DNA from: Emticicia aquatica
Lineage (GTDB): Bacteria; Bacteroidota; Bacteroidia; Cytophagales; Spirosomataceae
NCBI RefSeq assembly: GCF_923079645.1
Contig: NZ_CAKLPY010000001.1
Span: forward strand, 496,001-560,000
DNA length: 64,000 nucleotides
Direction of reading: 5' to 3'
The notes under the pieces are model-generated. The model searched no databases. It worked only from the letters and a program-made list of their open reading frames with translations, and had not been told where the DNA came from. The position numbers and the translations under genes were made by a program. Of the stretch, positions 19,991 to 50,064 are shown piece by piece. The stretch's first letter is position 1, and each line of letters starts with the position of its first letter.

Positions 19991-22900
19991 ATGAACAAAC
20001 TTTTACGAGTTTCATTAGCTTGTCTATTCCTCTTTGTTTCTTTTTGGGGAAATGCACAAAACGTTGTTGTAACGGGGAAAGTTACATCGAGCGAAGATGG
20101 TAGTCCACTACCTGGAGTATCAATCACGATTAAGGGTACAACAAAAGGAACGAGTACAGACGATAAAGGAATGTACAAGATTTCTACGTCGGCAAATGCT
20201 ACACTTCTAGTTAGTTTTATCGGTTTTTCTGATGTAGAGCAAACCGTTGGCAATAGAAGTATTATTGATTTTACACTTACTTCAGATATTAAATCGCTTA
20301 ATGAAGTGGTTGTAACTGGATATGGTTCTCAAATCAAACGTGATTTGACTGGTAATATCGTTAAAATTAAAGCAAGCGATATTCAAGATATGCCTGTAAC
20401 GACTTTTGAACAAAGCATCCAAGGAAAAGCTGCTGGTGTTCAAATTAACCAAGGTACAGGTAAATTAGCTCAAGGGATTCAGGTTCGTGTACGTGGACAA
20501 TCATCTGTTTCGGCCTCTAATGAACCATTATATGTATTGGACGGAATTCCGTTGACTCAAGGTAATCTTGGAATCGGTGGTGGAAGTACAAACCCATTAG
20601 TTGATATCAATCCACAAGATATTGAATCAATTGAGATTTTGAAAGATGCTTCTGCGGGAGCTATCTATGGAGCGAGAGCTGCCAATGGTGTTGTTTTGAT
20701 TACTACCAAAAAAGGAAAATCAGGCAAATCTAAAATTACGTTCGGAATGCAGTATGGAAGTAGCAAACCAACCAAAGTTTTGAAATTCCTGAATACTAAA
20801 CAATACATTGATTTTTATCGTGTTGCGGCTGCAAACTCAGATGCAATCGATGGCTATGATACTAAAGACCCAGATTCATATACATCATACATGGAAAGTT
20901 TCTTTGACACGCAAAGTTTAGGGACATTAGGCACTTCAAACCAAGCGGATACTGATTGGGGTAGTTTAGCTTTCCAAAACGCACCTTCAAAACAATATGA
21001 TTTGAATTTGAGCGGTGGTTCGGATAAAACAACATTTTTTATCTCAGGACAATTGCTTGACCAAACAGGTATTATTTTAGGTAATGGATTCAATCGTTAT
21101 ACTGGACGTATGAATCTAACGCATAAAGTTACCGAACGTTTGAGTGTTGGTATGAATATGAGTGTTGCTCGTTCATTAAATGAGCGTGTATCTGGTGACC
21201 GTCAGTTTGACAATCCATTGCAATTAGTGGCTTTACCACCAATGACACCTTCAACTGACCCAACAACTGGCCTTCCAGTAGGTACACCTCCAGGAGATAT
21301 TTCGATTCCTGTTTATTATAATGGTATGATTAATATCGGTAATGCTTACTATAATACTACGGTTCACCGTAATATCAGTAATGTATTTGCAGAATATACT
21401 TTCTTGAAAGGATTACGTTTCCGTACTGAATTTGCTTTAGATTTATTGAATCAACAAGAAGAACAATATTATAACAGCAAAACTCAACGTAACTTCGGTG
21501 CTCCACAAGGATATGGCTATAATCGTTTTGTGAGAGTAGAAAACTATAATACAAACAATTATTTTGTTTATGATAATACATTTGGTAAGCATACAATTAA
21601 TGCTACGGCTGGTTTATCGTACCAAAATTCTCAAACAAAAACGAATGCTGCTGAAGGTAAAGATTTTCCATCGGATGCGTATCGTATGATTGCAAGTGCT
21701 GCTCGTAAAACTGATGCAAGCTCGTCACAATCTGACTATCGTTTTGCTTCATATTTCTCACGTGTTAACTATAAATTTAACGATAAATATTTGTTAGGTT
21801 TAAGTGCTCGTATTGATGGTTCATCGCGTTTCGGTGCCGATAATCGTTATGGATTTTTTCCAGCGGTTTCGGCCGGTTGGGTGCTTTCTGAAGAAAGTTT
21901 CTTGAAAGATGTTAAACTAATTAGCTTCTTGAAAATACGTGGAAGTTGGGGTAAAACAGGAAATGCTGAGATTGGTAACTTCCCGCAATTAGGTTTATTT
22001 ACTGGAGATGCTGGTTATGGTGCTTTGCCAGGACAACGCCCTACACAGTTAGCTAATCCATCGTTAGGTTGGGAAACTACGCAACAAATTGACCTTGGTT
22101 TAGACTTTGGTATTTTGAATAACCGTATCAATGGAGAAATTGATTATTACGAAAAAAATACAACAGGTTTATTGTTAAATGTAAACGTTCCAGGAACTAC
22201 TGGTTTTGCTACACAAGTTAAAAACGTTGGTGCATTGACTAACAAAGGTTTTGAATTTGTATTAAATACAGAGAACCTAGTAGGAGATTTCAAATGGAAA
22301 ACAAGTTTGAATGCTTCAACAAACAAAAATAAAATCACTGATTTGCAAGGTCAAGTGATTGAAGGCGGTTTATCTAATATGAGCCGTGCCGTTGAAGGAC
22401 AACCTCTTGGTACATTCTTTACAGTTGAATACGCTGGTGTTGACCCTGCAAATGGCGATGCTCTTTGGTACAAAAACACCAAAAACAGCGATGGAACAAT
22501 CGACCACTCTACTACAAATACTTATAGCAAAGCTCAACGTACTGTTATTGGTAGTCCACTTCCAAAATGGGTTGCTGGGGTAACAAATACATTCAGCTAT
22601 AAAGGAATTGAACTAAGTGTATTCTTTAACGGAGTATTTGGAAATAAACTTAACTTCTACGGTGTAGGTCGTTTCTCTTCTGCAAATGGTCGTTTTGAAG
22701 ATAACCAAACGGTAAATCAATTAGCAGCTTGGACTCCTCAAAATACTGATACGAAAGTTCCACAAGCTCGTTTGTTCTTCAATAATGGAGCTCAAGCATC
22801 AAGCCGTTTCATTGAAGATGGGTCTTATGTTCGTTTACGTAATGTAACACTTGCTTACAATTTGCCAAAATCGCTAGTTAATAAAGTGAAATTAAGCAAT

Positions 22901-23068
22901 GTTAGATTGTTCTTTACTGGACAAAACTTATTGACATTTACGAAGTATTCTGGTTGGGATCCTGAAGTAAATGCAGATGATGTAGTAACTAATATTGCTT
23001 TGGGGTATGATTTTTATACCACTCCACAAGCAAAAACATTCATGGGTGGACTAAACATTAGTTTCTAA
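19991..23068 (+). CDS. SusC/RagA-type TonB-linked outer membrane protein
   Basis: A 1025-residue TonB-dependent porin that imports glycans with its SusD lid. A signal peptide (residues 1-22, ending GNAQ) precedes a carboxypeptidase-regulatory-like domain (about 24-100, GKVTSSEDGSPLPGVSITIK). A plug domain follows, with the SusC marker SIEILKDASAGAIYGARAAN and VVLITTKKGK, then a 22-strand barrel ending in a hydrophobic strand with terminal Phe (GGLNISF). There is no N-terminal STN domain, so it is not linked to an anti-sigma factor. The susD-like gene starts 80 bases later. The glycoside hydrolase operon converges on this pair from the other side. Confidence 0.95.
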   Translation: MNKLLRVSLACLFLFVSFWGNAQNVVVTGKVTSSEDGSPLPGVSITIKGTTKGTSTDDKGMYKISTSANATLLVSFIGFSDVEQTVGNRSIIDFTLTSDIKSLNEVVVTGYGSQIKRDLTGNIVKIKASDIQDMPVTTFEQSIQGKAAGVQINQGTGKLAQGIQVRVRGQSSVSASNEPLYVLDGIPLTQGNLGIGGGSTNPLVDINPQDIESIEILKDASAGAIYGARAANGVVLITTKKGKSGKSKITFGMQYGSSKPTKVLKFLNTKQYIDFYRVAAANSDAIDGYDTKDPDSYTSYMESFFDTQSLGTLGTSNQADTDWGSLAFQNAPSKQYDLNLSGGSDKTTFFISGQLLDQTGIILGNGFNRYTGRMNLTHKVTERLSVGMNMSVARSLNERVSGDRQFDNPLQLVALPPMTPSTDPTTGLPVGTPPGDISIPVYYNGMINIGNAYYNTTVHRNISNVFAEYTFLKGLRFRTEFALDLLNQQEEQYYNSKTQRNFGAPQGYGYNRFVRVENYNTNNYFVYDNTFGKHTINATAGLSYQNSQTKTNAAEGKDFPSDAYRMIASAARKTDASSSQSDYRFASYFSRVNYKFNDKYLLGLSARIDGSSRFGADNRYGFFPAVSAGWVLSEESFLKDVKLISFLKIRGSWGKTGNAEIGNFPQLGLFTGDAGYGALPGQRPTQLANPSLGWETTQQIDLGLDFGILNNRINGEIDYYEKNTTGLLLNVNVPGTTGFATQVKNVGALTNKGFEFVLNTENLVGDFKWKTSLNASTNKNKITDLQGQVIEGGLSNMSRAVEGQPLGTFFTVEYAGVDPANGDALWYKNTKNSDGTIDHSTTNTYSKAQRTVIGSPLPKWVAGVTNTFSYKGIELSVFFNGVFGNKLNFYGVGRFSSANGRFEDNQTVNQLAAWTPQNTDTKVPQARLFFNNGAQASSRFIEDGSYVRLRNVTLAYNLPKSLVNKVKLSNVRLFFTGQNLLTFTKYSGWDPEVNADDVVTNIALGYDFYTTPQAKTFMGGLNISF

Positions 23069-23148
23069 TATTTAGCAGGTTATGTCTCATTAAATTTGAA
23101 AAAGCATAACAAGACTCTTTATTAATTTACTTAAAGCAATTTGATAAA

Positions 23149-24492
23149 ATGAATAAAAATATAAAAAATTGGCTATTTGTTGGAGCATCTGTTGCATTGA
23201 TGACAGCGTGTGATAGCCGCTTAGATGTAAAACCAACACAATCAATTGAAGAATCAACGGCACTTGCTACTTCGCAAGATGTAGAGGTAACACTCGTTGG
23301 GGCTTATGACGGACTTGCTAGTAACAACCTTTATGGTGGTGCAATCCAATATTCTGGAGATTTATTAGGGGATGAAGCCGAAGTTCGTTTTGGCGGTACA
23401 TTCTCTACTTTGGACGAATTATGGCGTAAAACTATGACAACCACGAATACTCAAACACAAGCATCGTGGTTACAGGCTTACAACGCTATTAATCGTGCAA
23501 ATAATGTTTTGGCTTCGCTTGATAAAGTAGAAGCGAGCAAGAAAAGCAGTATCGAAGGAGAGGCTCGTTTTATTAGAGGCTTAATCTATTTTGATTTAGT
23601 AAGACTTTGGGCTAAAGCGTGGGGCGATGGTGATAATAACACAAATTTGGGTGTGCCTTTGGTTACAACTCCTACTCGTGTAGTTGGCCCTGAAGATAAC
23701 CGTTCAAGAGCAACTGTTGCTGCGGTTTATACACAAATCTTAGAAGACTTAACAAAAGCAGAAAATTTGTTAGGAAATATTACAAATGCAGGTTTTGCTT
23801 CAAAAAATGCTGCTCAAGCAATTTTAGCAAGGGTATATTTGCAACAAGGTAATTATGCTGCTGCCCGTGATGCTGCTAATAAAGTAATTGCTAGCGATCA
23901 ATTTGCCTTGACAGAATCTTTTGGTGAGGCTTTTGATGATGCAACAAATGATAGCGAAATTATTTTCAAAATTATTGTTACCGACCAAGATGGTTCAAAT
24001 GATTTGAATACATTTTATGCTCCATCAACTTTTCAAGGGCGTGGAGATATTCGTATCCAAGCGAAACATCTTGCACTATACTCAGCAGGCGATACACGTG
24101 GTTCTTTCTTCGTAAAGGCTTCAAATAATAATTACACGGCAAAATTCTTAGACCAATACGGAGATGTGCCAGTAATTCGATTGGCTGAAGTATATTTGAT
24201 TCGTGCAGAAGCTAACCAACGTTTGGGTACAAGTGTTGGTGCAAAGCCATTGGACGATGTTAATCTTATTCGTGGAAGAGCAGGTGCAAGTGCATTAGCA
24301 TCGGCTGATTTGAATGCAATTTTAGCAGAACGCAAATTAGAATTAGCATTTGAAGGCCAACAAGTGCATGATGCCAAACGTCTTAAGAAAAATGTAGGTA
24401 CATTAACATTTAGCGATAATAAATTGGTTATTCCGATTCCACAACGTGAAATTGATACCAATAAATCTTTAGTTCAAAATCCAGGATATTAA
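23149..24492 (+). CDS. SusD/RagB-type surface glycan-binding lipoprotein
   Basis: A 447-residue lipoprotein (signal and lipobox MTACDSRLDVKP, Cys21). SusD proteins cap the SusC barrel and bind the incoming sugar. The family blocks include YNAINRANNVLASLDKVE, RFIRGLIYFDLVRLWAKAWG and, near the C-terminus, PVIRLAEVYLIRAEANQRLG followed by ERKLELAFEGQQVHDAKRL. At 447 residues it is on the short side for the family. It closes the plus-strand transcription unit, with a strong bidirectional terminator after it. Confidence 0.95.
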   Translation: MNKNIKNWLFVGASVALMTACDSRLDVKPTQSIEESTALATSQDVEVTLVGAYDGLASNNLYGGAIQYSGDLLGDEAEVRFGGTFSTLDELWRKTMTTTNTQTQASWLQAYNAINRANNVLASLDKVEASKKSSIEGEARFIRGLIYFDLVRLWAKAWGDGDNNTNLGVPLVTTPTRVVGPEDNRSRATVAAVYTQILEDLTKAENLLGNITNAGFASKNAAQAILARVYLQQGNYAAARDAANKVIASDQFALTESFGEAFDDATNDSEIIFKIIVTDQDGSNDLNTFYAPSTFQGRGDIRIQAKHLALYSAGDTRGSFFVKASNNNYTAKFLDQYGDVPVIRLAEVYLIRAEANQRLGTSVGAKPLDDVNLIRGRAGASALASADLNAILAERKLELAFEGQQVHDAKRLKKNVGTLTFSDNKLVIPIPQREIDTNKSLVQNPGY

Positions 24493-24506
24493 TAATTGGA
24501 TTGATA

Positions 24507-24543
24507 AAAAAAGCGGCAAGTCATAATGACTTGTCGCTTTTTT
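24507..24543. terminator. Bidirectional terminator between susD and GH3
   Basis: AAAAAAGCGGCAAGTCA (24507-24523) pairs with TGACTTGTCGCTTTTTT (24527-24543) with one G-T wobble and a 3-base loop. A/T runs on both sides let it serve both of the convergent genes. Confidence 0.9.
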
Positions 24544-24560
24544 GGTTTTGAGAATAAAAG

Positions 24561-26882
24561 CTATTTTTTGAATTTTAAAACTCTTCCATCTTTAATAACT
24601 CCTTTCCAGTTCATGCCGAAGCCAAAATCGTAACTGTTTCCTGCCAAATCTTTGTAAACATTCATATCGAAAGGCACGTCTTCTGCTTGTTTTTCTACAG
24701 TTTTCATATCAATTGGCATTTGCATTGGCAAAAGTGCGGATGGTTCTGATTTTCCTGAAATAATTTCAAAAAGAACTTGGTCTTGTACGCCAAAATTAAC
24801 CAGAATAGCAGAAGCATCTTTTTCAATTTCACCAAAAACCATTGGATTTGAAGTGGTTATTGATACAATTACGGGCTTGCCTTTCATCTTTGCTTTCGTT
24901 TCAACAACCAATTGAGCATCAGTAATATTAGCTGTTTTGGTTGATTTGTTTTTATAACCACGGTCAGTAAAGTTTTCTAGTGGGTCGCCACCAGCTATAC
25001 TTTTTTCACGAGCTTCGGTTGCTGTATAATCATTGTATTGTAAACTGATTGGGAAATAACCATTGCCACCTTTTTTCAAATCTTCTTTATCATAACCAAT
25101 TGTAGCAGTCGGATTTAGAATAAAAACAATAGAAAAATCAGCTTCATCAGGATTTTCGGTAACATTGAAATATTTTTTTACTAAGTCTAAATTAACTGGC
25201 AAATCAGTTGAAGCAGGCGTTTCCATACCTAAGAAATTACGACTTGCTGGACTGAAACGTTTAGGAATATAAACCGTCTTTTTTGTATTAATCGGTAAAG
25301 TATTGCTTTGATTTTTAAGCATTACTACCGATTTTAATTGTGTTTCGTAACCAATTTTCATGAATTCAGGCTTACCAACTATTGTTTTTGTTTCCTCTGG
25401 ATTCAAATAAGGGTTTTCAAAAACACCTACTCGGAAGATATTTTTCAATAATCGTACTGCTGATAGTTCCATTCTGGCTCTCATTTTTGCTTCTCCAAAT
25501 TGCTCAACACCTTTTTTATAGGCTGCAATGATTGGTTTAGCATCATTATTTCCTCCGAATTGGTCAACGCCAGCCATTAGAATTTTATAATGACGGTCTA
25601 TTTCAGATAAATTTTCGGTTCCCCAAGGGCGTCCATCCAAAAATTGGTCAAGTACTTTGTGTTCTGATGTAATACCCCAATCGGTACAAACTACGCCATC
25701 ATATTTGTATTTTGTCCGTAACAAGTCATTGATAATGTATTTATTGTAGCTGTTACCTACATTTTCGCCATTTTTTATATCCTGATTCCAAGAAATGGTA
25801 TAATAAGGCATAACGGCAGATGCCATTTGTGTTTTGCCTTTTAATTTGAATGCACCTTGAATAAAAGGAATCATGTGAGCATTGAAATTTTTACCAGGAT
25901 AAACCGCAAATTTACCTGAGCCAAAGTGTGCATCTCGTCCACCTTCACCAGAACCACCACCTGGCCAATGTTTTACCATTGCATTGACACTTCCAAAGCC
26001 CCAACCATTGGCAATTTCTTTTTTTCCGAGTGAAGTTTGAAAACCATCGCAATAAGCTTGACCCATAGCTGCCGAAAGTAAAGGACTTTCTCCAAAAGTA
26101 CCGTTAAATCTCGCCCAACGTGGTTCGGTTGCAATATCAACTTGTGGCGAAAGGGCTGTTGTAATACCCAAAGCTCGGTATTCGGCAGCGGCAACTTGTC
26201 CAAATTTTTGAATCAAAGAAGGGTCGAAAGTGGCAGCCATTCCTAGCGAACTAGGCCACATTGAAATCTCTCCACCTGCAGCGGCATCATATTCGGCTTT
26301 TGATTTTGTTGCATGGCGTGGGTCTGTGCTATTATTGGCAGGAATCCCGAAACCGACGCTTTCACAAAAAGCTTGTAATTTATTGTTCCATTGAGCTGCA
26401 ATTTCGGGTGTTTGAACTGTCGTAATCAATACATGGCGAAGATTATCTTCTTTAAGAAATTTTTTCTGCTGGTCGGTCAAATCACTTGGGTCAGTTTCTC
26501 CTGGCTTAAATGGTTTTCCATTGTATGTACCAGCAAAATAACCACCTGCTCTTGCTGGAATGGATTGGTGAGCAGAATAAAGCATCAAACCTGCAATTTC
26601 TTCAACACTAAGTTTAGTAGCCAAATCTTTGGCTCGTAAGTCGGCTGGTAACCGCCAATCCTCAAACTTATCAAGTTTACCGTTTTTATTCAAATCTTTG
26701 AAGGCAAATCCATTGATTGTTAGCAATTTAATGCCAGATATTGGTGAATAACCGAGGGTTTGACCTCCTTGATTTTCGACGAGATTAAAAGTTCCTTTAG
26801 GCGTTTCACTCCATTTTTTTTGGGCAAAAGCAAGCGTTCCTAAAAAATATAGAAAGCTAAATGCTATAAATGTTTTTTTCAT
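24561..26882 (-). CDS. Secreted GH3 beta-glucosidase-type hydrolase
   Basis: A 773-residue exported enzyme (signal 1-20, ending LAFA) of glycoside hydrolase family 3, which releases beta-linked glucose or xylose from glycan or aglycone ends. An EF-hand-like loop DLNKNGKLDKFEDW at residues 63-76 precedes the catalytic barrel, so calcium may stabilise the N-terminus. KHWPGGGSGEGGRDAH starts at residue 304, and the predicted nucleophile is Asp401 in GVVCTDWGIT. A C-terminal alpha/beta sandwich begins near residue 530 (MLKNQSNTLPI). It is the last gene of a four-gene minus-strand run, 39 bases after the MFS transporter stop. Confidence 0.93.
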   Translation of the reverse strand: MKKTFIAFSFLYFLGTLAFAQKKWSETPKGTFNLVENQGGQTLGYSPISGIKLLTINGFAFKDLNKNGKLDKFEDWRLPADLRAKDLATKLSVEEIAGLMLYSAHQSIPARAGGYFAGTYNGKPFKPGETDPSDLTDQQKKFLKEDNLRHVLITTVQTPEIAAQWNNKLQAFCESVGFGIPANNSTDPRHATKSKAEYDAAAGGEISMWPSSLGMAATFDPSLIQKFGQVAAAEYRALGITTALSPQVDIATEPRWARFNGTFGESPLLSAAMGQAYCDGFQTSLGKKEIANGWGFGSVNAMVKHWPGGGSGEGGRDAHFGSGKFAVYPGKNFNAHMIPFIQGAFKLKGKTQMASAVMPYYTISWNQDIKNGENVGNSYNKYIINDLLRTKYKYDGVVCTDWGITSEHKVLDQFLDGRPWGTENLSEIDRHYKILMAGVDQFGGNNDAKPIIAAYKKGVEQFGEAKMRARMELSAVRLLKNIFRVGVFENPYLNPEETKTIVGKPEFMKIGYETQLKSVVMLKNQSNTLPINTKKTVYIPKRFSPASRNFLGMETPASTDLPVNLDLVKKYFNVTENPDEADFSIVFILNPTATIGYDKEDLKKGGNGYFPISLQYNDYTATEAREKSIAGGDPLENFTDRGYKNKSTKTANITDAQLVVETKAKMKGKPVIVSITTSNPMVFGEIEKDASAILVNFGVQDQVLFEIISGKSEPSALLPMQMPIDMKTVEKQAEDVPFDMNVYKDLAGNSYDFGFGMNWKGVIKDGRVLKFKK

Positions 26883-26921
26883 TGTTTTAATTTATTTGTT
26901 CAAAACCTATTTTATATGAAA

Positions 26922-28118
26922 TTATACTTTTTTGGGTGATTGAGTATGTAGTTTCGAGATAAAAAAAAGCCCAAAAACAGCCAAAGAAGCTGCAACCCAA
27001 AGAAAAGCCGAAGGGTCGATTTTATCAGAAAGAATACCAGCAATAGCTGGAATAAGTACACCTCCAACAATTTCGGCAATAGCAGTGATAAGACCGATTG
27101 CTTTGGCTTTTAAATGGTCAGGAACAGATTCAGAAGGCACAACAGCGGCTACAATAGGCAACAATCCCATCATGAAATAAGTAAGAAACATCGCTGGAAG
27201 ATGAACTACCGTTCCTGCTAAATAATAAACTGCGAAAGGATAAAATATACCTATTATCATAAAAATATTTAATACTTTTTTACGTCCGATTTTATCTGAA
27301 AGTGCTGGAACAAAAATTGAAGACAAAAGCCCCGAAACACCCAAAAGTCCCATCGTTTTTCCCATTTCATCGGCTGACATACCTTGAGTATTAACAAAAT
27401 AATTTGAAATAAAAGGCAAAGTGGCAAACCACCAACCAAAAACACAACAAGCTGCTCCAATGCCCCATTTAATATTATTGTATTGTAAAAGTTCTGTAAA
27501 ATTAGTGGTTGATTGTTCTTTAGAAACTGTACTTTCTGCTGTTGATTTTTTTATAAATTTCCATGCTAATAAACCAAGCACTAAACCTGGAATACCAGCC
27601 ACGAAAAAGGCATTTCTCCAACCGATATTTTCAGCAATTTGTACCAAAACTACAGGAGCTAATATTGACCCAAACAAAGCTGAACCAAAAGCTTGCAAGA
27701 TACCTGCATTCAAACCCAATCGATTGGGAGAAGATTCTCTTTCAACGAAATTTTGAGCCAATGGAATGATAGGCCCTTCTGAGAAACCCATTACGAGTCT
27801 TGCAAAGAGCAAAGTAGCAAATGAAACAGCCCAACCAGATCCAACTGAGCAGAGTGAAAATGTAAAAACAGCGGCAATGAAAACCAATTTTTTTCTATTA
27901 TTAGTTTCAGCCCAAGCAGTTGAAAAATAGCTCGAAAATGCCCAAGCTAATGATAATGCACCTGCCAAAAGCCCGATTTGGGTATTATTTAAGTTTAAAT
28001 CTTTGGCTACGTAAGGCATCAAAAAATTGAGTGCTAAACGGTCGAAAAATAAACAGCCGAATGTGAGTGCCATAAGTAGCACGATGCCATTTTCGTAGGT
28101 GAAAAATCCTTTTTTCAT
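26922..28118 (-). CDS. MFS transporter (anion:cation symporter-like)
   Basis: A 398-residue transporter with twelve predicted membrane helices. The segments NLNNTQIGLLAGALSLAWAF and ARLVMGFSEGPIIPLAQNFV fit the MFS subgroup that includes hexuronate, galactonate and aromatic acid symporters. The specificity cannot be read from sequence. It sits between the PhlG-like hydrolase (41 bases upstream) and GH3 (39 bases downstream) on one strand, so it likely imports a product of extracellular deglycosylation such as a sugar or a phenolic aglycone. Confidence 0.88.
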   Translation of the reverse strand: MKKGFFTYENGIVLLMALTFGCLFFDRLALNFLMPYVAKDLNLNNTQIGLLAGALSLAWAFSSYFSTAWAETNNRKKLVFIAAVFTFSLCSVGSGWAVSFATLLFARLVMGFSEGPIIPLAQNFVERESSPNRLGLNAGILQAFGSALFGSILAPVVLVQIAENIGWRNAFFVAGIPGLVLGLLAWKFIKKSTAESTVSKEQSTTNFTELLQYNNIKWGIGAACCVFGWWFATLPFISNYFVNTQGMSADEMGKTMGLLGVSGLLSSIFVPALSDKIGRKKVLNIFMIIGIFYPFAVYYLAGTVVHLPAMFLTYFMMGLLPIVAAVVPSESVPDHLKAKAIGLITAIAEIVGGVLIPAIAGILSDKIDPSAFLWVAASLAVFGLFFISKLHTQSPKKV

Positions 28119-28159
28119 GTTTGATTAGGTTTAGGGTTATGGTTGATTATAAAGGAGGT

Positions 28160-28795
28160 TTAGTTAGCTGTTTTATATTGTAATACACCGTCAATTCTCT
28201 TCACACTCAAATCCATGAAAGGATTATATTTTGTGTTTTTTACAACTTTATATAGGTCAAATAGTTGAGGTAAAAACAAGCCCCAATTGCTTATTTCTGT
28301 ACCTGCATGTTTTGCCCAAATCATTCCTTGTTCGTGATTTTCAGATTTTTTCCAACCAAAAGCGTTAGATTTTCCAATCACACCTACTGAATTAGAATTT
28401 TGTACATCACTTTGCCACTGATGTATTCGATAGCCAAGGGGCTCTTTCACATGCAAGCTTCCTTCGCCAAAACCCAAGCCCGCCACAATGATACAATGGT
28501 CATATTCGATATATTGCTTTATGGCATCGGGAACTGAATTAAAATCTTCAAAGCGAATATACAAATTTTGTCGTTTTCCGTCCGACCATGTTTGTGGAGC
28601 AATATGAACTGCTCCAATTAAATTTCCGTGTTTGGGTGGAATTACCCATTGCAGCGGTTCATGTTCTTCTGGATGCCAAAGTAAAAATCCTTTTTCCATA
28701 TTTGACCAAAACCAATCTATCATTTCTGGGGAAACGTTTTTATGTTGCCAGTCGAGGTGCGTACCATTTTGGTCTTGACTTATGCTATATTGCAT
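28160..28795 (-). CDS. PhlG/phloretin-hydrolase-like protein (putative C-C bond hydrolase)
   Basis: A 211-residue protein without signal peptide, so cytosolic. The block VSPEMIDWFWSNM (residues 21-33) followed by LLWHPEEHEPLQW (38-50) resembles the diacetylphloroglucinol/phloretin hydrolase family, metal-dependent enzymes that hydrolyse a C-C bond next to a phloroglucinol ring. A C-terminal His163-x-x-x-Glu167 pair (KHAGTEI) parallels the His/Glu metal ligands known for PhlG. His41, His45 and His115 are further candidates. It is shorter than PhlG (about 290 residues) at the N-terminus. It lies 24 bases after GH1 and before the MFS gene, which fits cleavage of an imported aglycone. The call rests on remembered family patterns. 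Confidence 0.55.
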   Translation of the reverse strand: MQYSISQDQNGTHLDWQHKNVSPEMIDWFWSNMEKGFLLWHPEEHEPLQWVIPPKHGNLIGAVHIAPQTWSDGKRQNLYIRFEDFNSVPDAIKQYIEYDHCIIVAGLGFGEGSLHVKEPLGYRIHQWQSDVQNSNSVGVIGKSNAFGWKKSENHEQGMIWAKHAGTEISNWGLFLPQLFDLYKVVKNTKYNPFMDLSVKRIDGVLQYKTAN

Positions 28796-28819
28796 TATTA
28801 TCTTATTCTTGAGTTAGAA

Positions 28820-30247
28820 TTACAGGCCTTTATTTGCTTGGATTATCTGCTGATATTCATAATAACTTAGCTTTGGCGTGCGTTCTTGTGTTGCAAAATC
28901 GACATAAATTAATCCTAAACGTTTAGTATAACCAGCTACCCATTCAAAATTATCCCAACCACTCCAAACTACATATCCATTCAAATTTGCTCCTTCTTTT
29001 TTTGCTTTTAATGCCCATTCCACATGGCGTTTGATGTAGTCTGCACGCATCGGGTCATTGATTTTATTATCGACTTTTACATCCTCAGAAACATAACCAG
29101 TGCCATTTTCGGTGATAAAAACCTTCGGATTTCCATATTGGTTTTTTAAACGCATCAATATTTTGTACAAATATTCAGGTCTTACTGGCCCTATATTCGA
29201 TTTCACAGCATCAGGATTATTGTCCAACCATTTTAATGACATCGGTGTATCTTCGCCTTTTACGATGGAAGGAGCATAAAAGTTTACGCCTAAAAAATCA
29301 GGTTTATTAGCTGCAATAAATGCCATATCTTGTGCAGTTGCTTTGAAACTTGGATTATATTTTTTGAGCGAATCTAATGCTATTTTTGGATATTTTCCTT
29401 TGTAAAGTGGGTCTAAAAAAAGGTCATTTATCAAAATATCTTGAAACTTTGCCGCTTTTACATCGGCTGATTTTTTTTCATCCCAAGGAGCAGCTGGATT
29501 TAGATTTAGGACTATTCCAATTTCACCATTAAGTTTCAAATCGTGGTAAAACTTTATAACAGTTGCATTTGTCATCATTTGTCGATGTGCTTTTTGCATC
29601 TGACTCATATAATATTCTTTTGCAGGTAATTTGTTTTCCTGAGCATTTAGCATATTTTCTACAAGAAAAAACTCAATATAAGGTTCATTAAAAGTGATAA
29701 ACTTCTTCACTTTATGTCCATATCGCTTGATAACAGTTGTGGCATAATGAATGTACCAGTTTGCCATTTCAGGATTACCCCAACCACTTTTTTGTAATAA
29801 TACAGCAGGATAATCGAAATGGTAAATTGTAACCAATGGTTCGATACCCGCAGCCAATAAATCGTCTATCAGTACATCATAATGTTTGAGAGCTACTTCA
29901 TTAACAGCACCAGTTCCATCAGGAATAATGCGACTCCAATCTAATGAAAAGCGGTAAGCATTTATACCTAATTCTTTCATTAACTGAATATCCTTGAGGT
30001 ATTGCGTACGGTCGTACATATTAATAGAAACATTGCCAGTTTGTTTTTCGCCAATCGTAAATTGAGTTATTCCTACTTTATTAGTCAGAAAATCCCATTT
30101 GGATTCTCCTTTGCCATCAGTCTGATATGCACCCTCAACTTGATAAGCAGCCGTTGCAACACCCCACAAAAATGGTTGTTTCTTTTGTTGTGCCATTAGT
30201 GTTTGTAAGAAACACAGCGAAACGAAGGTTAAAATGAAGTTTTTCAT
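28820..30247 (-). CDS. Secreted GH1 beta-glucosidase
   Basis: A 475-residue exported glycoside hydrolase family 1 enzyme (signal 1-19, ending LMAQ). It retains FLWGVATAAYQVEGAYQTDG at the start of the barrel, the acid/base Glu188 in TFNEPY and the nucleophile Glu380 in VFITENGTG, and WDNFEWVAGYTKRLGLIYVD at the end. GH1 enzymes cleave beta-glucosides, including plant phenolic glucosides; periplasmic members are less common than cytosolic ones. It is the first gene of the run GH1, PhlG-like, MFS, GH3. A long imperfect inverted repeat precedes its start. Confidence 0.95.
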   Translation of the reverse strand: MKNFILTFVSLCFLQTLMAQQKKQPFLWGVATAAYQVEGAYQTDGKGESKWDFLTNKVGITQFTIGEKQTGNVSINMYDRTQYLKDIQLMKELGINAYRFSLDWSRIIPDGTGAVNEVALKHYDVLIDDLLAAGIEPLVTIYHFDYPAVLLQKSGWGNPEMANWYIHYATTVIKRYGHKVKKFITFNEPYIEFFLVENMLNAQENKLPAKEYYMSQMQKAHRQMMTNATVIKFYHDLKLNGEIGIVLNLNPAAPWDEKKSADVKAAKFQDILINDLFLDPLYKGKYPKIALDSLKKYNPSFKATAQDMAFIAANKPDFLGVNFYAPSIVKGEDTPMSLKWLDNNPDAVKSNIGPVRPEYLYKILMRLKNQYGNPKVFITENGTGYVSEDVKVDNKINDPMRADYIKRHVEWALKAKKEGANLNGYVVWSGWDNFEWVAGYTKRLGLIYVDFATQERTPKLSYYEYQQIIQANKGL

Positions 30248-30290
30248 TGTTTTTCTAGAAAATATTTACTATTGAATATTGATAGTCATT

Positions 30291-30337
30291 TAACAGTAAA
30301 TAGAGGCAACTTTCAAAGCTGTCTCCGTTTACTGTTA
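30291..30337. other. 47-base imperfect inverted repeat upstream of GH1
   Basis: The outer arms TAACAGTAAA (30291-30300) and TTTACTGTTA (30328-30337) are perfect; the inner part around CTTTCAAAG pairs with several wobbles or mismatches. It is 43 bases before the GH1 start with no U-tract, so it may be an operator or a structured leader. The rest of 30248-30594 holds the GH78 terminator and AT-rich sequence without a gene. Confidence 0.5.
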
Positions 30338-30543
30338 TAATGAACTAGAAAATATAATTTAAAGTCAAAAACACTCTTTTGTTAAAGTGTATTCTGATGA
30401 ATCTTGGAAAGCAAATTTCAGATTAATTTCATTAACTTATGAATCAAAAAAAAGCCAATTTGATTCAAAATCAATCATTGTGAATTTGCTATTTTATTTA
30501 GTACAAATTATTCTAAAAGTTTTAATTGATTTAAGTAGAAAAT

Positions 30544-30583
30544 AAAAGGCAAGCCATCAAATATTTGATAGCCAGCCTTTTTT
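30544..30583. terminator. Stem-loop terminator after GH78
   Basis: The outer arms AAAAGGC (30544-30550) and GCCTTTT (30575-30581) surround an inner ATCAAATATTTGAT palindrome, with A-rich and T-rich flanks that give U-tracts on either strand. It lies just after the GH78 stop at 30595. Confidence 0.7.
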
Positions 30584-30594
30584 GAATATGGTTG

Positions 30595-33500
30595 TTATTT
30601 TACTTCAAAGCTATATTCACCCGAAGCCAAAGTCATTTTTACTTGACCATCTTCAAGCAAAATATTACTTATACCATTAGTAGGCGTAAGTGTTTTGCCA
30701 TTTTCTTTGACTTGAACAATGGTTTTTGCTGGCAAATATAATGTAGCCATAGTATTGGCAGGAATTGTAGTTTTATAAATCAACTTTGCACCTTCATAAC
30801 GCCATTCACTTGCTATTTTTCCATAAACCGACTCGTAGAATCCTTTTGCCCAAGTCATCACTTTGTCGGGGTCAGGAGTAGGTTTTAAGATAAAATGTTT
30901 GAAAGCGGCTTTTTCGGGACTTCTTTGAATGCCCAAAGAATAATTATACATCCATGATGAAACTGCCCCAAAAGAATAATGATTGAACGAATTCATACTA
31001 TTATTTCCACCAAAGCCATTTTCAACAGTATAAGAGTTGAGGCGTTCCCAAATTGAAGTTGCTCCATTAACTACCGAATATAACCACGAAGGGTAACTTT
31101 TTTGTTGTAAAAGTCGGTAAGCATTCGCATGATTGCCATTTTGAGAAAGTGCGTCCGAAATAGAAGCTGTACCAATAAAACCAGTCATTAATGAATATTC
31201 TGGTCGTTCAACACCTTCATCGTCTTTGTTTTTTCGTAAAATAGTTTCATTCAAATTTTTAATCGCAAAAGGCTTATTTTCTTCATTAAATAAACCCAAA
31301 GCCAATGGAATAGCGTAAGAAGCCTGTGTGTCAATCAATTGGCCTTTATCCGTTTTAACTGCTACTTGACGTTCACTTGGAGGACCCATTCGAGCTGCAA
31401 CAATGCCTGATTTGATGGTTTTGTGCGTTGTTTTATCAACGTAAACTTCGTTAAAAGTTTTCTTAATTTCAGCGTATTTTGCTTTGAAAGCGGCTGCATC
31501 TTCGGTTTTATTTAGAAGCGAGGCAACTTTGTTCATAATTTCCAAATCATAAGCAAAATAGGACATCCAAAATAAAGTATTATCATTTTTATTGCCTTCT
31601 GGACTCAACCAATCGCCCAAAGGTCCTTCGTTCAAAATACCATTTGTTTTATCAATTTTAGTTTCTAAAAATGCAATGTATCGTTTCATAGCATCATAAT
31701 GTTCTTTCAATAACTGCAAATCTCCGTATTGTTGATAGGTTTCCCACGCCACCACAATACCCGCACTTCCCCAAAGTGTACCACCGAAACCACCACCCAT
31801 CGGAGCCACATCGGTAAATCTACCACTTTCGGCTTGAACATCTCTCATGCCCAAAAGGTGTCTTCTAAGAAACAAATCAGCATTGGTAAGATAAGTTGCT
31901 GATTTTGAAAAAACCGAAATATCACCACTCCAACCCATGCGTTCGTTACGAGCAGGAGTATCGGTTGGAATAGAAAGAAAATTACTTCGCAACGACCAAG
32001 TGATATTGCTCCAAAGTTTATTAACCAAATCATTTGATGTTTCGTAGGCCGAACTTAATTCTGTTACCGAACTGATAACTAATCCTTTCACATCAGATGT
32101 CGGAATAGCCTCGTCGATTCCTGTAATTTCCAAATAGCGATAGCCATGAAAAGTAAATCGTGGTTGAATCGTTTCGTCGCCACCTTTCAAAATATAAATA
32201 TCTTGTGTGAGAGCCGCTCTGATATTTTCAATCATAATCATGCCTACATTGGCACTATATTCTTTCAAATCAGGATATTTTACTTCGGCATAACGCATCG
32301 TAATTACTTGACCTTTTTTGCCATTTTTAATGAATATTTGAGGCACACCAACCATATTTTGAGCCATATCATACACAAAAACTTTTGGACGTACTTCTTC
32401 AACTTTTTGGGCAATCATTGTTTTTACGATGGTGGCATTGTTGCCCATTTGACCAATGATTTTGAAGTCTTTGTAATCTAAAGTCGATTTTCTGCCCATA
32501 AAATCTGTGAAAGTTCCTTGATACGATGTGCCTTCCAATGGTACTTCAACAGCGGCTTTCCAGGTGTTTTGATTATATTCGGCAGTTGCCCAACCTTTAA
32601 TTAAGTCCTCTTTGGTAGCATCATAAACTTCACCTTGAAAATAACTGCCATATCGAATCGGACCATCATTGAAAAACTTCCAGTCCGTAGGGTTCGATGT
32701 GATAACTTGCTCTGAATCATCAGAATACGTAATGACCAATTTACTCAAAAGTGATTGTCTGTCGCCAAAATAATTCCAACTTTCACCGCTATACGTTATG
32801 TTTCCACTCCACCATCCTTCACTCAGCCAAGCTCCAATGGCATTTTTTTCGCCCCTTTTCAATGCACCAGTTACATCGTAAGTCTGATACATGTGATTTT
32901 TATTGTATTGCGTTAAACCTGGGTTGAAATAGTCATTACTCACCCGTGTACCGTTGAGATACATTTCATAAATGCCTCTAGCAGTAACGTATAAACGAGC
33001 ATTTTTGATTGGTTTTGCTTGAGTTGAAAAAGTTGTTCGGAGCATTGGGGCAGCATTTTTGCTCGGATTTGCTAAAATTAATGCTCCGCCTTTGATTGAA
33101 TAACTACCGTTTTCAATGGTTAATTTATCTGATTTGAAAATGCCTGAATAATTATTATTAGATAATTTTTCAGTAAATAAGGTATTGGATGGAAAACGAA
33201 AATTTTTGATTACTACATCCGAAAAATAAGCAATTTGGTTATTGTTTGTTTGAAAACCAATGTCAGCGAGCATTGGAAAACTGATAAAATTATTGCCACT
33301 ACCAACTGGATTTAGATTGAATCCACGAGGTGCAAATGGTGAAGTATTGCTTTCAGTTTTTTCTTTAAGTTTGTTTTCGGCTTTATTTCCGTCAACAAAA
33401 ACCTCAAATATGCCAAAATTACATTCTACAAAAAAAAGATGTTTTTCGAACTTATTTGCTTGATTAATGAGCGTTTTTGAAATTTCAAGGCTTTTGATTG

Positions 33501-34230
33501 GAGTTTCTTTGCTATCATTTTTATCATAGCCTACGCGATAAATATTTAATTTTGCAACGCCATCGTTAGCGTCAGAAACGTTTGAAATATCCAGTTCAAA
33601 TGCCACATAACTTTGGTTGGTTGTATTTTCTACTCCTTGAATATTCAAATCTTTATCTAATAAACGATAATCGTTTCCGCCAAAAACAAAAGCAGCTTTG
33701 GTTGAGTTGGAGGCTTTGTCGAGCTGGATGCCATATTGAAATTTATAAACAGATAAATAATGCGAATAAAAAACCAAGTCATCATCACCGCCACCAATCC
33801 ACTTTGCACCTGACCAAGCTGATAAATCGGGATTTGGATTCATTAAACCTGTTTCAAACCAAGAAGTACTTGACGTAACATTTTTGGTATTATCCCAAAC
33901 GATTACTTCCCAAGTATAACGAGTAGTTGCTTTTAGTGGAATTCCTGCGTATTCGATGCCGTGTGAAAGATCGGAATTTACTTTTTTTGAATCCCAAAAG
34001 ATTTGATTTTTAGCGTCAGTAACGATTATTTCATAGGCAATTTGGGAGTATCCTCGTTTGGCATCGGATGCAATCATTTGCCAACTAAAATGAGGATTTG
34101 TGATATCAATTCCCAATGGTTTTTCCTGATAATCTACTTTCAGATTTTCGAGAGAAATATTGGCAAATACATTGCTAATGATTGAGAATAGCAGCAAAAA
34201 TGTAGGCCAGAATCTTTTGTGACTAAGCAT
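30595..34230 (-). CDS. Secreted GH78 alpha-L-rhamnosidase
   Basis: A 1211-residue exported enzyme (signal 1-23) with the multi-domain build of GH78. The N-terminal beta domains start LENLKVDYQEKPLGIDITNP and SWQMIASDAKRGYSQIAYEI. A Bac_rhamnosid-type accessory domain follows (ARLYVTARGIYEMYLNGTRV). The (alpha/alpha)6 barrel carries the acidic catalytic segment PTDTPARNERMGWSGD at about residues 753-769, and a C-terminal beta domain ends the protein. The inverting enzymes release L-rhamnose from glycans and flavonoid or saponin glycosides. The length exceeds typical GH78 members of about 900-1100 because of an extra N-terminal insertion at residues about 160-350 that looks like a lectin-type fold. 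It precedes the GH1 operon but is separated by a terminator. Confidence 0.93.
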   Translation of the reverse strand: MLSHKRFWPTFLLLFSIISNVFANISLENLKVDYQEKPLGIDITNPHFSWQMIASDAKRGYSQIAYEIIVTDAKNQIFWDSKKVNSDLSHGIEYAGIPLKATTRYTWEVIVWDNTKNVTSSTSWFETGLMNPNPDLSAWSGAKWIGGGDDDLVFYSHYLSVYKFQYGIQLDKASNSTKAAFVFGGNDYRLLDKDLNIQGVENTTNQSYVAFELDISNVSDANDGVAKLNIYRVGYDKNDSKETPIKSLEISKTLINQANKFEKHLFFVECNFGIFEVFVDGNKAENKLKEKTESNTSPFAPRGFNLNPVGSGNNFISFPMLADIGFQTNNNQIAYFSDVVIKNFRFPSNTLFTEKLSNNNYSGIFKSDKLTIENGSYSIKGGALILANPSKNAAPMLRTTFSTQAKPIKNARLYVTARGIYEMYLNGTRVSNDYFNPGLTQYNKNHMYQTYDVTGALKRGEKNAIGAWLSEGWWSGNITYSGESWNYFGDRQSLLSKLVITYSDDSEQVITSNPTDWKFFNDGPIRYGSYFQGEVYDATKEDLIKGWATAEYNQNTWKAAVEVPLEGTSYQGTFTDFMGRKSTLDYKDFKIIGQMGNNATIVKTMIAQKVEEVRPKVFVYDMAQNMVGVPQIFIKNGKKGQVITMRYAEVKYPDLKEYSANVGMIMIENIRAALTQDIYILKGGDETIQPRFTFHGYRYLEITGIDEAIPTSDVKGLVISSVTELSSAYETSNDLVNKLWSNITWSLRSNFLSIPTDTPARNERMGWSGDISVFSKSATYLTNADLFLRRHLLGMRDVQAESGRFTDVAPMGGGFGGTLWGSAGIVVAWETYQQYGDLQLLKEHYDAMKRYIAFLETKIDKTNGILNEGPLGDWLSPEGNKNDNTLFWMSYFAYDLEIMNKVASLLNKTEDAAAFKAKYAEIKKTFNEVYVDKTTHKTIKSGIVAARMGPPSERQVAVKTDKGQLIDTQASYAIPLALGLFNEENKPFAIKNLNETILRKNKDDEGVERPEYSLMTGFIGTASISDALSQNGNHANAYRLLQQKSYPSWLYSVVNGATSIWERLNSYTVENGFGGNNSMNSFNHYSFGAVSSWMYNYSLGIQRSPEKAAFKHFILKPTPDPDKVMTWAKGFYESVYGKIASEWRYEGAKLIYKTTIPANTMATLYLPAKTIVQVKENGKTLTPTNGISNILLEDGQVKMTLASGEYSFEVK

Positions 34231-35097: not shown

Positions 35098-37344
35098 TTA
35101 TGATTTAGGCTGTTCGGACATAAATGGCTGATTATAATACCTTTTACCAGTAGTTTTAAATAAAGCATTAGCAACCGCCCCAAAAACTGGTGGAAATGGT
35201 GGTTCGCCAAGTCCAGTAGGGTCGATGTCATTTTCTACGAAATGAACATCAATTTTTTGTGGAGCTTCGTTATGACGAATCATTCGATAATTATGGAAGT
35301 TATTTTGCTCGGCTGCACCATCTTTGTGCGTTAAAGCTCCATAAAACGACTGGCCGATTCCATCAACTACTGCACCTTGCACCATATTTCGGGCCGCATC
35401 TGGGTTTACAACTACACCACAATCAACTGCTGAAGTTACTGATTCTACATACGGTTGTCCGTCTCTCATAACCATATCAACTACATGACCAGCATAAGAA
35501 GCATGGCAGAAATAAGCTGCTACGCCACGTTTTTTGCCAGCATTTTCTGGTTTTCCCCAACCAGATTTTTCTTTCAACAATTCTAAAACGCCAATATATC
35601 TACTTGCATCATAATCGTTGTTTTTTCCAACTGGATTTTCTTTAGCTCTTTTCAACAAATCAAGACGGAAGGCTATTGGGTCTTTACCCATTGCTTCGGC
35701 AACTTCGTCCAAAAACGATTGCTCTGCTGCTGCATTGAAGTTTGAACGTGGAGCTCTAAAAGCACCGATTGTAATGTTTGATGGAATTTCCCAACCATCG
35801 GCTAAATAATTATCAACTGCACCCGCAGGGAAACGATTGGCATGAACAGGGTTTTCTGGAATACCGCCACCAGTTACATGAAAGCCAATCAGATTTTTGT
35901 TGGCATCGAGAGCCGCTCGGTAAGTTGCAGTATACATTGGGCGATAAATCCCGTAAGTCATATCGTCTTCACGGGTATAAATCAATTTTACAGGAGCTTT
36001 GAGTTTTTGTGAGATACGAGCAGCCTCATAGACATACGACCCATAAGCTCTACGACCAAAACCACCACCCATGCGGGTCATTTGAATTTCGATTTTATCA
36101 GCAGGAAGATTCAATAATTTTGCAAGCGTTGGTTCCATCCAACCTGGTGCTTGCAATGGTCCAGCCACTAAGGCTTTGTCATCTTGCACGTGAGCAAAAA
36201 AATTCATTGGCTCCATTGTATTATGTGCCAAAAATGGAGCATTATATGTACGTTCGATAATCTGAGTAGCGTTTTTGAAAGCTGATTCTGGGTCACCGTC
36301 TTTTCTTAATTGTGTGGCTGGTTTTTTAGCATATTCAGCCATCATTTCAAATTGGCGACTAGTTGTTTCTAATCTACCAGGAACAGTTATTTCTCTTTTT
36401 CCACCTCTACCGTTCATCGTATCTTTTACGTCGCCAGCAGCTTCCCATTGTATGTTAAGTTTCTTTCGAGCATTCATTACTTCCCAAGTAGAATTACCGA
36501 CAACAGCAATCATTTCATTGAAAGCACGTGTATCGAAACCACCTTGCTCGAAACCATCATCGTAGAGTTTGAAGCTAAAAATATCTTTAATTCCAGACAT
36601 TTTTTTTGCTTCGGTGGCATCAAAAGATTTTAATTTCATGCCAAATGCAGGTGGATGCTGAATCATGGCAATCAACATACCGTCAACACGATAATCCATT
36701 CCAAAAAGTGGCTTGCCCGTAACAACTTTTACTCCTTCTGTATTTTTCTTTGAATTTCTTACAATCGAAAAATCTTTAGGAGCTTTCAATTTTACATCTT
36801 TTGGAACTGCGATGGTAGCAGCTTTGGCAGCCATTTCACCATATCTAGCCGATTTTCCGCTTGAATGAGATAAAATACCCGCTTTTGTTGTGATTTCAGA
36901 TGTAGGAACGCCCCAAGTTTGTGCTGCTGCTTCGATGAGCATTTGACGAGCCGCTGCCCCAGCATTTCTCAAAGGCTTCCAGTACATTCTTACTGAATTA
37001 CTTCCACCTGTAAATTGTGGGCCATATTTCACATTATCGTGCGTACCCATTTCTACCACCACATTTTTCCAGTCGCAATCCAATTCTTCTGCCACCATCA
37101 TTGGTAGAGAAGTCATTACATTTTGTCCAAATTCTGGGTTTGGAACTAAAATTTTAATTACATTATCAGGTGTAATTTTGATATAGGCTGTCAATTCAGA
37201 CCATTGTTCAGGAAAGCTTAATTGGGCTACTTTCTCAGCAGCTTTTGCTTCCGAAAACCAACTGAAACTTAGCAACATTCCGCCACCTGCCAAAGCCGAA
37301 GATTTCAGGAATGAGCGTCTATTATATGTTTTTGTATTTTCCAT
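35098..37344 (-). CDS. Molybdopterin-binding subunit of a xanthine dehydrogenase-type oxidoreductase (copy 1)
   Basis: A 748-residue large subunit of the IorB/aldehyde oxidase-like family, which hydroxylates N-heterocycles or oxidises aldehydes at a molybdenum centre. The N-terminal NRRSFLKSSALAGGGMLLSF is a Tat signal for folded export. Cofactor blocks include ARTGGSNS-like TGGSNSVRMYWKPLRNAGAA, EPMNFFAHV, MGGGFGRRAYGSYVYEAA, GAFRAPRSNFNAAAEQSFLD and the C-terminal GLGEPPFPPVFGAVANALF with the catalytic-type Glu. It follows the 2Fe-2S subunit by 20 bases. A second, diverged copy lies on the other side of that subunit. The substrate is unknown. Confidence 0.9.
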   Translation of the reverse strand: MENTKTYNRRSFLKSSALAGGGMLLSFSWFSEAKAAEKVAQLSFPEQWSELTAYIKITPDNVIKILVPNPEFGQNVMTSLPMMVAEELDCDWKNVVVEMGTHDNVKYGPQFTGGSNSVRMYWKPLRNAGAAARQMLIEAAAQTWGVPTSEITTKAGILSHSSGKSARYGEMAAKAATIAVPKDVKLKAPKDFSIVRNSKKNTEGVKVVTGKPLFGMDYRVDGMLIAMIQHPPAFGMKLKSFDATEAKKMSGIKDIFSFKLYDDGFEQGGFDTRAFNEMIAVVGNSTWEVMNARKKLNIQWEAAGDVKDTMNGRGGKREITVPGRLETTSRQFEMMAEYAKKPATQLRKDGDPESAFKNATQIIERTYNAPFLAHNTMEPMNFFAHVQDDKALVAGPLQAPGWMEPTLAKLLNLPADKIEIQMTRMGGGFGRRAYGSYVYEAARISQKLKAPVKLIYTREDDMTYGIYRPMYTATYRAALDANKNLIGFHVTGGGIPENPVHANRFPAGAVDNYLADGWEIPSNITIGAFRAPRSNFNAAAEQSFLDEVAEAMGKDPIAFRLDLLKRAKENPVGKNNDYDASRYIGVLELLKEKSGWGKPENAGKKRGVAAYFCHASYAGHVVDMVMRDGQPYVESVTSAVDCGVVVNPDAARNMVQGAVVDGIGQSFYGALTHKDGAAEQNNFHNYRMIRHNEAPQKIDVHFVENDIDPTGLGEPPFPPVFGAVANALFKTTGKRYYNQPFMSEQPKS

Positions 37345-37364
37345 TTTTCAAGCTTTTTAGAAGA

Positions 37365-37820
37365 TTACTTTTTAGCCGCCGTTTTGATAGCTTCTTTAAT
37401 TCTTAGATAAGTCCCACAGCGGCAAATATTGCCACTCATGTAAGCATCAATTTCTTCATCGGTCGGATTTGGATTGCTTTTGAGTAAAGCTGATGCAGAC
37501 ATGATTTGTCCTGATTGACAATAGCCACATTGAGCCACATCGTGTTCGAGCCATGCTTTCTGCACTGGGTGGTCAGCTTTTGCTGAAAGTCCTTCGATTG
37601 TTGTAATACTTGATTTTCCAACTGCTGAAACGGGTAAACTGCAAGAACGCACCGCATTTCCATCAAGATGAACTGTACATGCACCACACATAGCCATTCC
37701 GCAGCCAAATTTGGTTCCTGGCAAATTGAGGTGGTCGCGTAAAACCCAAAGAATGGGCGTTGATGGGTCAACATCTATTTGTTGCGTTTTCCCATTGATT
37801 TTTAAAGAATATTTTGCCAT
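37365..37820 (-). CDS. 2Fe-2S subunit of the molybdenum hydroxylase (IorA-like)
   Basis: A 151-residue two-cluster iron-sulfur subunit. The plant-type ferredoxin cluster ligands are in [17 protein letters not shown] with a further Cys in VRSCSLPV. The second cluster is in [10 protein letters not shown] and [15 protein letters not shown]. It passes electrons from the molybdenum centre. It lacks its own signal and would be exported by the Tat signal of a partner. It lies between two large-subunit genes, 20 bases before copy 1 and 105 bases after copy 2, and could serve both. Confidence 0.93.
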
Positions 37821-37850
37821 AGTATTGTATTTACTTCATTTAAAATTTAA

Positions 37851-37858
37851 CAAAAATA
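37851..37858 (-). promoter_or_regulatory. Candidate -7 box for the 2Fe-2S subunit
   Basis: CAAAAATA reads TATTTTTG on the minus strand (TAnnTTTG), 30 bases before the start codon. It would let the 2Fe-2S/copy 1 pair be made separately from copy 2. Confidence 0.4.
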
Positions 37859-37925
37859 TATAAATAAATCAGTAAAAAATAATGCTTTTCAAATGAAAAC
37901 TTACGAAAATCAAACAATTTGTCAA

Positions 37926-40169: not shown

Positions 40170-40342
40170 ATTTTTTGATTTTGAAATCAAATTTACAATT
40201 AATTATTCAATCAATTTCATTGATACATAACAAATAAGTAATCTACTTATAATCAACGATTTAATAAAGAAAAACAACTCATTTTTTACTCATTACCAAT
40301 TTCCACATAAACAAATATAGCCATAAATGGTTTTCGTTTGGT

Positions 40343-49788: not shown

Positions 49789-49991
49789 TGGGAAGTGTCG
49801 CTAATACTTTAACAAAATTCAAATTATTTATTACGAAATTCAAACAATTACTTTTTAGTTATTAAGTAATTTATATATTTTCCTGCAATTAAAATTTAGT
49901 GGTTTATTTGGTGTTGAACAAAGTTTTAATTACTTCAGTAGATAAATTTTGGCGTTAGTTATATTGCCTTGTTTTTTGCCCTTTGTTTGGA
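49789..49991. other. Divergent intergenic region upstream of the GH35-like gene
   Basis: This AT-rich sequence has no gene. A small inverted repeat AATTACTT (49846-49853) / AAGTAATT (49864-49871) lies between the two divergent promoters and could be an operator. Confidence 0.4.
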
Positions 49992-49999
49992 TATTTTTG
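49992..49999 (+). promoter_or_regulatory. Candidate -7 box for the GH35-like gene
   Basis: TATTTTTG matches TAnnTTTG, 65 bases before the chosen ATG at 50065. This supports the downstream start, since the ATG at 49969 would lie upstream of it. Confidence 0.4.
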
Positions 50000-50064
50000 C
50001 AAACCTATTTTTTGAAATTTACCGCATTTTATACCTTCGACCCATAAAACGAAACCCTTTTCTG

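Follow-up and report, generated by a model that had tools for sequence, protein, structure and literature searches.

A probable locus for rhamnosylated plant phenolics in Emticicia aquatica, with a distant relative of phloretin hydrolase

Little is known of how Bacteroidota handle the phenolic moiety of plant glycosides, and most work ends at sugar removal. What role, then, could a carbon-carbon (C-C) hydrolase play inside a run of glycosidase and transporter genes? The question is raised by a locus of Emticicia aquatica, in a window of 64,000 nucleotides (positions 496,001 to 560,000 of contig NZ_CAKLPY010000001.1). A preliminary description, made from the sequence alone, assigned it to the breakdown of rhamnosylated plant phenolics by glycoside hydrolases (GH) of families 78, 1 and 3, a major facilitator superfamily (MFS) importer and a 211-residue PhlG-like protein. 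We consider it probable, from homology and gene context, that the locus serves the uptake and degradation of plant phenolics bearing rhamnose and glucose, with C-C cleavage of the aglycone. The earlier reading is thus partly supported: it was largely right in direction and wrong or unproven in detail (the place of SusC/SusD, the substrate, strict PhlG membership), and its limits for the locus were too narrow. Our literature search found no earlier description of a Bacteroidota flavonoid-glycoside locus that includes a C-C hydrolase. Such a compact combination of rhamnosidases, glucosidases, importer and C-C hydrolase offers direct targets for tests of polyphenol breakdown.

Every gene named in that description is in place (Table 1), and Pfam and NCBIfam profiles confirm SusC, SusD, GH3, MFS, GH1 and GH78. 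The genes for GH1, the 211-residue protein, MFS and GH3 follow each other on the minus strand with measured gaps of 24, 41 and 39 bases, in agreement with the 24-41 bases first reported. GH78 is separated from GH1 by 347 bases and so probably has its own transcript; SusC/SusD lie on the opposite strand, convergent with GH3. A hydropathy check (not SignalP) also agrees with the proposed compartments: GH1, GH3 and GH78 have hydrophobic, signal-peptide-like N-termini, and the 211-residue protein has none. Catalytic motifs are intact in all three glycosidases, with TFNEP at 185 and TENG at 379 in GH1 and the nucleophile motif TDW at 400 in GH3, whose nearest solved structure is the beta-glucosidase 9ul7 (E 4e-83). 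GH78 has the complete set of five domains of its family, a 6-hairpin catalytic domain plus accessory domains, with an insert at about 146-388; its nearest solved structures are 3w5m, 6i60 and 6gsz. The MFS protein is predicted to take up the aglycone or the glycoside.

The central element is the 211-residue protein, for which the label 'PhlG-like' holds at the level of the wider superfamily and fails at that of the Pfam family: it scores 16.4 bits against PF18089 (2,4-diacetylphloroglucinol (DAPG) hydrolase, PhlG), short of the curated cut-off of 22.7. All 10 of its homologues matched PF18089 (best 1.1e-6), and hhalign aligned the profile of the close group with canonical PF18089-type proteins, mostly from the same bacterial family as the window genome, at 97.2% probability (E 2.9e-11). 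Structural evidence came in stages. Searching the PDB with the protein alone gave nothing useful, a first profile reached the Mycobacterium abscessus phloretin hydrolase (PHY; 5xey/5xe5) at E 4.4 only, and a first structure model (pLDDT 66) had no Foldseek match at E 0.001. Trimming the alignment lifted the mean pLDDT to 81; PhlG and PHY were not among the 50 Foldseek matches listed for this model, and a second structural comparison placed it with PhlG 3hwp (Z 12.6, 168 residues, 17% identity) and with 5xey (Z 12.0, 164 residues, 18% identity). These two gave the longest alignments and highest identities in the match list. Bet v 1/PYL and further helix-grip proteins reached Z 12-14, but over 135-153 residues at 6-13% identity; with Z values so similar, the fold by itself is not decisive. 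Taken together, the protein is a true distant relative within the PhlG/phloretin-hydrolase superfamily, outside the PhlG family as Pfam draws it.

We aligned 23 proteins, among them the phloretin hydrolase of M. abscessus and a Pantoea protein annotated as DAPG hydrolase, and built a tree in which seven form a short clade apart from 16 others. Residues H45, H125, H163 and E167 of the window protein are invariant in all 23. In PhlG the metal ligands are H129, E160, H270 and E274 and the catalytic histidine is H214; by position, H45, H163 and E167 match three of the ligands and H125 the catalytic residue. With phloretin hydrolase (M. abscessus and Eubacterium ramulus), an enzyme that splits phloretin into phloroglucinol and phloretic acid, the protein shares, besides the fold, the WHPxxH motif and the positions of the catalytic histidine and HxxxE. 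The remaining position, Glu154 of 5xey (chain numbering), is Gln in 7/7 members of the short clade (Gln68 in the window) whereas it is Glu in 16/16 of the others. The short-clade proteins also differ in length, 206-211 residues against about 280 in phloretin hydrolase, and lack the N-terminal part. Because all seven carry the substitution and support is 99/97, the short clade is a sister clade, neither PhlG nor PHY as now defined. PhlG differs further in that the window gene lies outside an antibiotic cluster.

Members of the short clade are spread over five phyla: the window, Anaerolineae, three Gammaproteobacteria, Deferrisomatales and Acetoanaerobium. Close homologues of the window protein (54-63% identity) occur in Chloroflexota, Pseudomonadota and Thermodesulfobacteriota, with one at 59.6% in Bacillota, and no close member was found among 97 relatives, 394 other Bacteroidota genomes and 221 other genomes of the same family (overlapping sets), 17 of which carry distant, canonical-type PhlG members. 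Horizontal acquisition of the gene is the simplest reading. Recent transfer, sought in base composition, left no visible trace (GC 0.373, against 0.35-0.38 in the neighbours). The canonical PhlG-type genes of the family (L012-L028) are fused to, or directly 5' of, a berberine-bridge-type (BBE) FAD oxidase; an FAD oxidoreductase directly adjoins a PhlG-type gene on a Mycobacterium plasmid (L059:2409-4561), and a homologous BBE-type oxidase (L001:8006-10624) lies close to the short-clade gene in Anaerolineae. This pairing of PhlG-type gene and FAD oxidase is recurrent; a search of the window genome for a BBE oxidase found none.

Gene context in other phyla forms part of the case for an acyl-phloroglucinol substrate. 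In Acetoanaerobium noterae, a short-chain dehydrogenase/reductase (SDR), a 3-hydroxyacyl-CoA dehydrogenase, a cyclase and a BKACE protein (364 bits) are followed directly by the short-clade homologue, itself at 22.1 bits against the PF18089 cut-off of 22.7; beyond it lie an FMN reductase and, nearby, a clear chalcone isomerase (196 bits). The four preceding families are those of the Clostridium scatologenes phloroglucinol operon (PGR, DPGC, TfD, TAL), where reductase, dehydrogenase, cyclohydrolase and lyase are proven, and the cyclase carries both Trp20 and Tyr22 as reported for CsDPGC (PMC10470551). Mycobacterial DAPG hydrolases are likewise reported within phloroglucinol-degradation-type clusters (PMC10470551). 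Two canonical PhlG/PHY queries had no match in the 2.63 Mb A. noterae record, and by analogy the homologue appears to occupy the phloretin-hydrolase slot of a phloroglucinol-type gene set. That record, NZ_CP154629.1 (L056), is labelled a plasmid, is chromosome-like in size and lists four features only. In Gammaproteobacteria an MFS gene directly precedes the short-clade gene, with chalcone isomerase-like genes close by. The Anaerolineae locus L001 holds, with its short-clade gene, GH1, GH78, SMP-30, SDR, a BBE-type oxidase, VOC proteins, an FAD monooxygenase, a cyclase and a fumarylacetoacetate (FAA) hydrolase.

Orthologues of GH1 (75-84%) were found in nine genomes from five other genera of the family, and none reached that score in other genomes of the window's own genus. 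An MFS orthologue (52-82%) lies near GH1 in eight of these relatives: three (L042, L043 and L044, from two other genera) hold GH78, GH1, MFS and GH3 all together at 52-81%, mostly 70-81%, and five more have GH1-MFS without the full set. GH3 orthologues (73-78%) occur in L041-L044 and those of GH78 (70-81%) in L042-L044. This clustering of orthologues puts the grouping above chance. Of the order GH78-GH1-PhlG-MFS, whose conservation had been put forward for checking, the glycosidases and the transporter were recovered, and the PhlG-like gene is missing from all the related loci (0/9). In L040 and L041, GH1 is followed directly by MFS, so that the window hydrolase looks inserted between the two. 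The related loci carry homologues of L001 genes (BBE 48%, VOC 40%, VOC dioxygenase 36%, cyclase 42%), and a 3-oxoacid CoA-transferase as well. On the strength of these homologues, two phyla join GH1/GH78-type enzymes to overlapping aromatic gene sets, and the GH78/GH1/GH3/MFS set is supported as a conserved unit found repeatedly with aromatic-catabolism genes.

Conservation also redraws the limits of the locus. The preliminary description had included SusC/SusD; the related loci have no close counterpart (SusC at 27-34% only, one SusD at 28%), so that their membership has adjacency as its basis and is not supported by conservation. What those loci hold instead are orthologues of a second receptor, the TonB-dependent one of Table 1, at 48-55% over about 940 residues (L040-L047). 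The window GH106 is 77% identical to a GH106 beside GH1 in L042 and 64% in L046/L047. Judged by this conservation, the locus reaches GH106 and the TonB receptor (53.7-61.9 kb) and passes the right edge of the window. The next genes of the minus-strand run there encode an AraC regulator (79%), a cyclase with 98% identity to one of another genus, an SDR (about 69%) and a HisD-like dehydrogenase (77%). The cyclase-family genes L055:926-1684 and L043:411-1169 are 98% identical between two genera, against about 77-81% for other locus genes, which suggests recent transfer.

The route that we propose would begin with the TonB receptor, carrying a phenolic glycoside across the outer membrane. In the periplasm GH78 and GH106 would take off alpha-L-rhamnose, and GH1/GH3 beta-glucose; the aglycone would then be imported by the MFS protein. 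In the cytosol the 211-residue enzyme may hydrolyse the C-C bond that links an acyl group to a phloroglucinol-type ring, a step suggested by its superfamily, conserved residues and fold and by the Acetoanaerobium operon. The phenolic fragments might finally pass to an unlinked aerobic ring-cleavage cluster 0.5 Mb away in the same genome, which holds SMP-30, two SDRs, a VOC dioxygenase, an FrsA-like hydrolase, an FAD monooxygenase and an FAA hydrolase. Rutin, naringin and phlorizin are candidate substrates only. Polyphenol utilization gene clusters (PMC8824206) likewise link genes for deglycosylation with genes for the aglycone, but were described for gut genomes, with 0/60 seed proteins from Bacteroidetes. 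We also advance, tentatively and with less confidence than the reading of the locus itself, that the short Gln-for-Glu clade, horizontally spread over five phyla, acts as phloretin hydrolase where the canonical enzyme is missing, and that here its gene entered a conserved run of glycosidase and transporter genes to yield a polyphenol utilization locus for deglycosylation and aglycone cleavage. Missed by current profiles, the clade is a lead for locating the phloretin-hydrolase step that is missing elsewhere.

Several observations weigh against aglycone cleavage of this kind: the sub-threshold PF18089 score; a helix-grip fold, which is common among binding proteins; the clade-wide glutamine at the fourth metal-ligand position, by which catalysis could be altered or lost; and the related glycosidase loci, which work without the hydrolase. 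Further steps are missing from the window genome (assembly about 94% complete), where no bacterial chalcone isomerase is recognisable and PF05853 (BKACE) has no match, and the cyclase right of the window lacks the Trp20 and Tyr22 of CsDPGC (PMC10470551), and on that ground was rejected as a dihydrophloroglucinol cyclohydrolase. The anaerobic flavonoid pathway is therefore not present as such, and, unlike C. scatologenes, the genome has aerobic-type enzymes instead. A route from flavones or flavanones to the hydrolase would call for a chalcone isomerase, a step that dihydrochalcones or other acyl-phloroglucinols could do without. The strongest alternative is that rhamnosylated phenolics are degraded and the 211-residue protein acts on another bond or ring than an acyl-phloroglucinol, for example by retro-Claisen reaction of a ring-cleavage intermediate. 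The glutamine, the lack of chalcone isomerase in the L001 and L004 genomes as in the window genome, and a VOC gene directly upstream of the short-clade gene in L001 and L004, suggestive of another intermediate, all fit it, but the A. noterae homologue directly after phloroglucinol-type genes does not; we judge it unlikely, while giving it more weight than the other alternatives.

Somewhat less likely is an ordinary locus for a rhamnose-containing polysaccharide (e.g. rhamnogalacturonan or arabinogalactan side chains), with the hydrolase an unrelated passenger. SusC/SusD, the TonB receptor, the exo-glycosidases GH35, GH106 and GH78 and the ECF/FecR pair are typical of Bacteroidota glycan loci, and the preliminary description had named related loci lacking the hydrolase and responding only to polysaccharides as the finding that would speak against it. 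The hydrolase is indeed missing there, but the BBE, VOC, dioxygenase, cyclase and CoA-transferase genes of those loci make them unlike polysaccharide loci. Nor did the annotated genes yield any lyase or endo-acting enzyme; GH1 with an MFS importer is a small-glycoside pattern, the hydrolase sits tightly within that run, and its clade recurs near GH1 and GH78 in Chloroflexota. That the protein is a non-catalytic helix-grip binder of phenolics, as the many Bet v 1/PYL matches at similar Z and the lost Glu ligand might suggest, is very improbable, since the remaining metal and catalytic positions do not vary across the 23 proteins and the PhlG/PHY alignments stand out in length and identity.

Table 1. 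Features of the window, with strand and supporting match
Feature	Coordinates	Strand	Match or remark
SusC	19991-23068	+	Pfam/NCBIfam, 875 bits
SusD	23149-24492	+	Pfam/NCBIfam, 93 bits
GH3 beta-glycosidase	24561-26882	-	PF00933, 103 bits
MFS importer, about 10-12 transmembrane segments	26922-28118	-	PF07690, 157 bits
211-residue PhlG/phloretin-hydrolase-like protein, predicted cytosolic metal-dependent C-C hydrolase	28160-28795	-	PF18089, 16.4 bits
GH1 beta-glucosidase	28820-30247	-	PF00232, 417 bits
GH78 alpha-L-rhamnosidase	30595-34230	-	PF17389, 308 bits, and four further domains
GH35 beta-galactosidase, locus membership uncertain	49969-51696	+	NF051902, 760 bits; no counterpart noted in related loci
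GH106 alpha-L-rhamnosidase	53707-57006	-	PF17132, 1088 bits; outside the stretch first described
SDR oxidoreductase	57353-58123	-	26-36% to SDRs of related clusters
TonB-dependent receptor, distinct from SusC at 19991	58731-61937	-	PF00593, 94 bits
FecR-type anti-sigma factor	62099-63187	-	profile matches
ECF sigma factor	63269-63862	-	profile matches

Among the flanking genes, the FecR-type anti-sigma factor and the extracytoplasmic function (ECF) sigma factor are likely regulators of the TonB receptor. The SDR of Table 1 scores against an L-rhamnose dehydrogenase model, below its cut-off, and possibly takes part in aglycone or sugar oxidation. Close to GH35 lie a secreted protein with weak likeness to PHB depolymerases (45482-46750) and a 640-residue secreted protein for which an NCBIfam search gave no match (51705-53627). 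Two molybdenum hydroxylase large subunits and a [2Fe-2S] subunit, of the isoquinoline/xanthine oxidoreductase type, adjoin GH78 (35098-40190). Elsewhere in the genome, another aromatic cluster may be marked by one more VOC dioxygenase (33%), accompanied by a transporter-like and an AraC-like gene (G000:C1:874001-894000).

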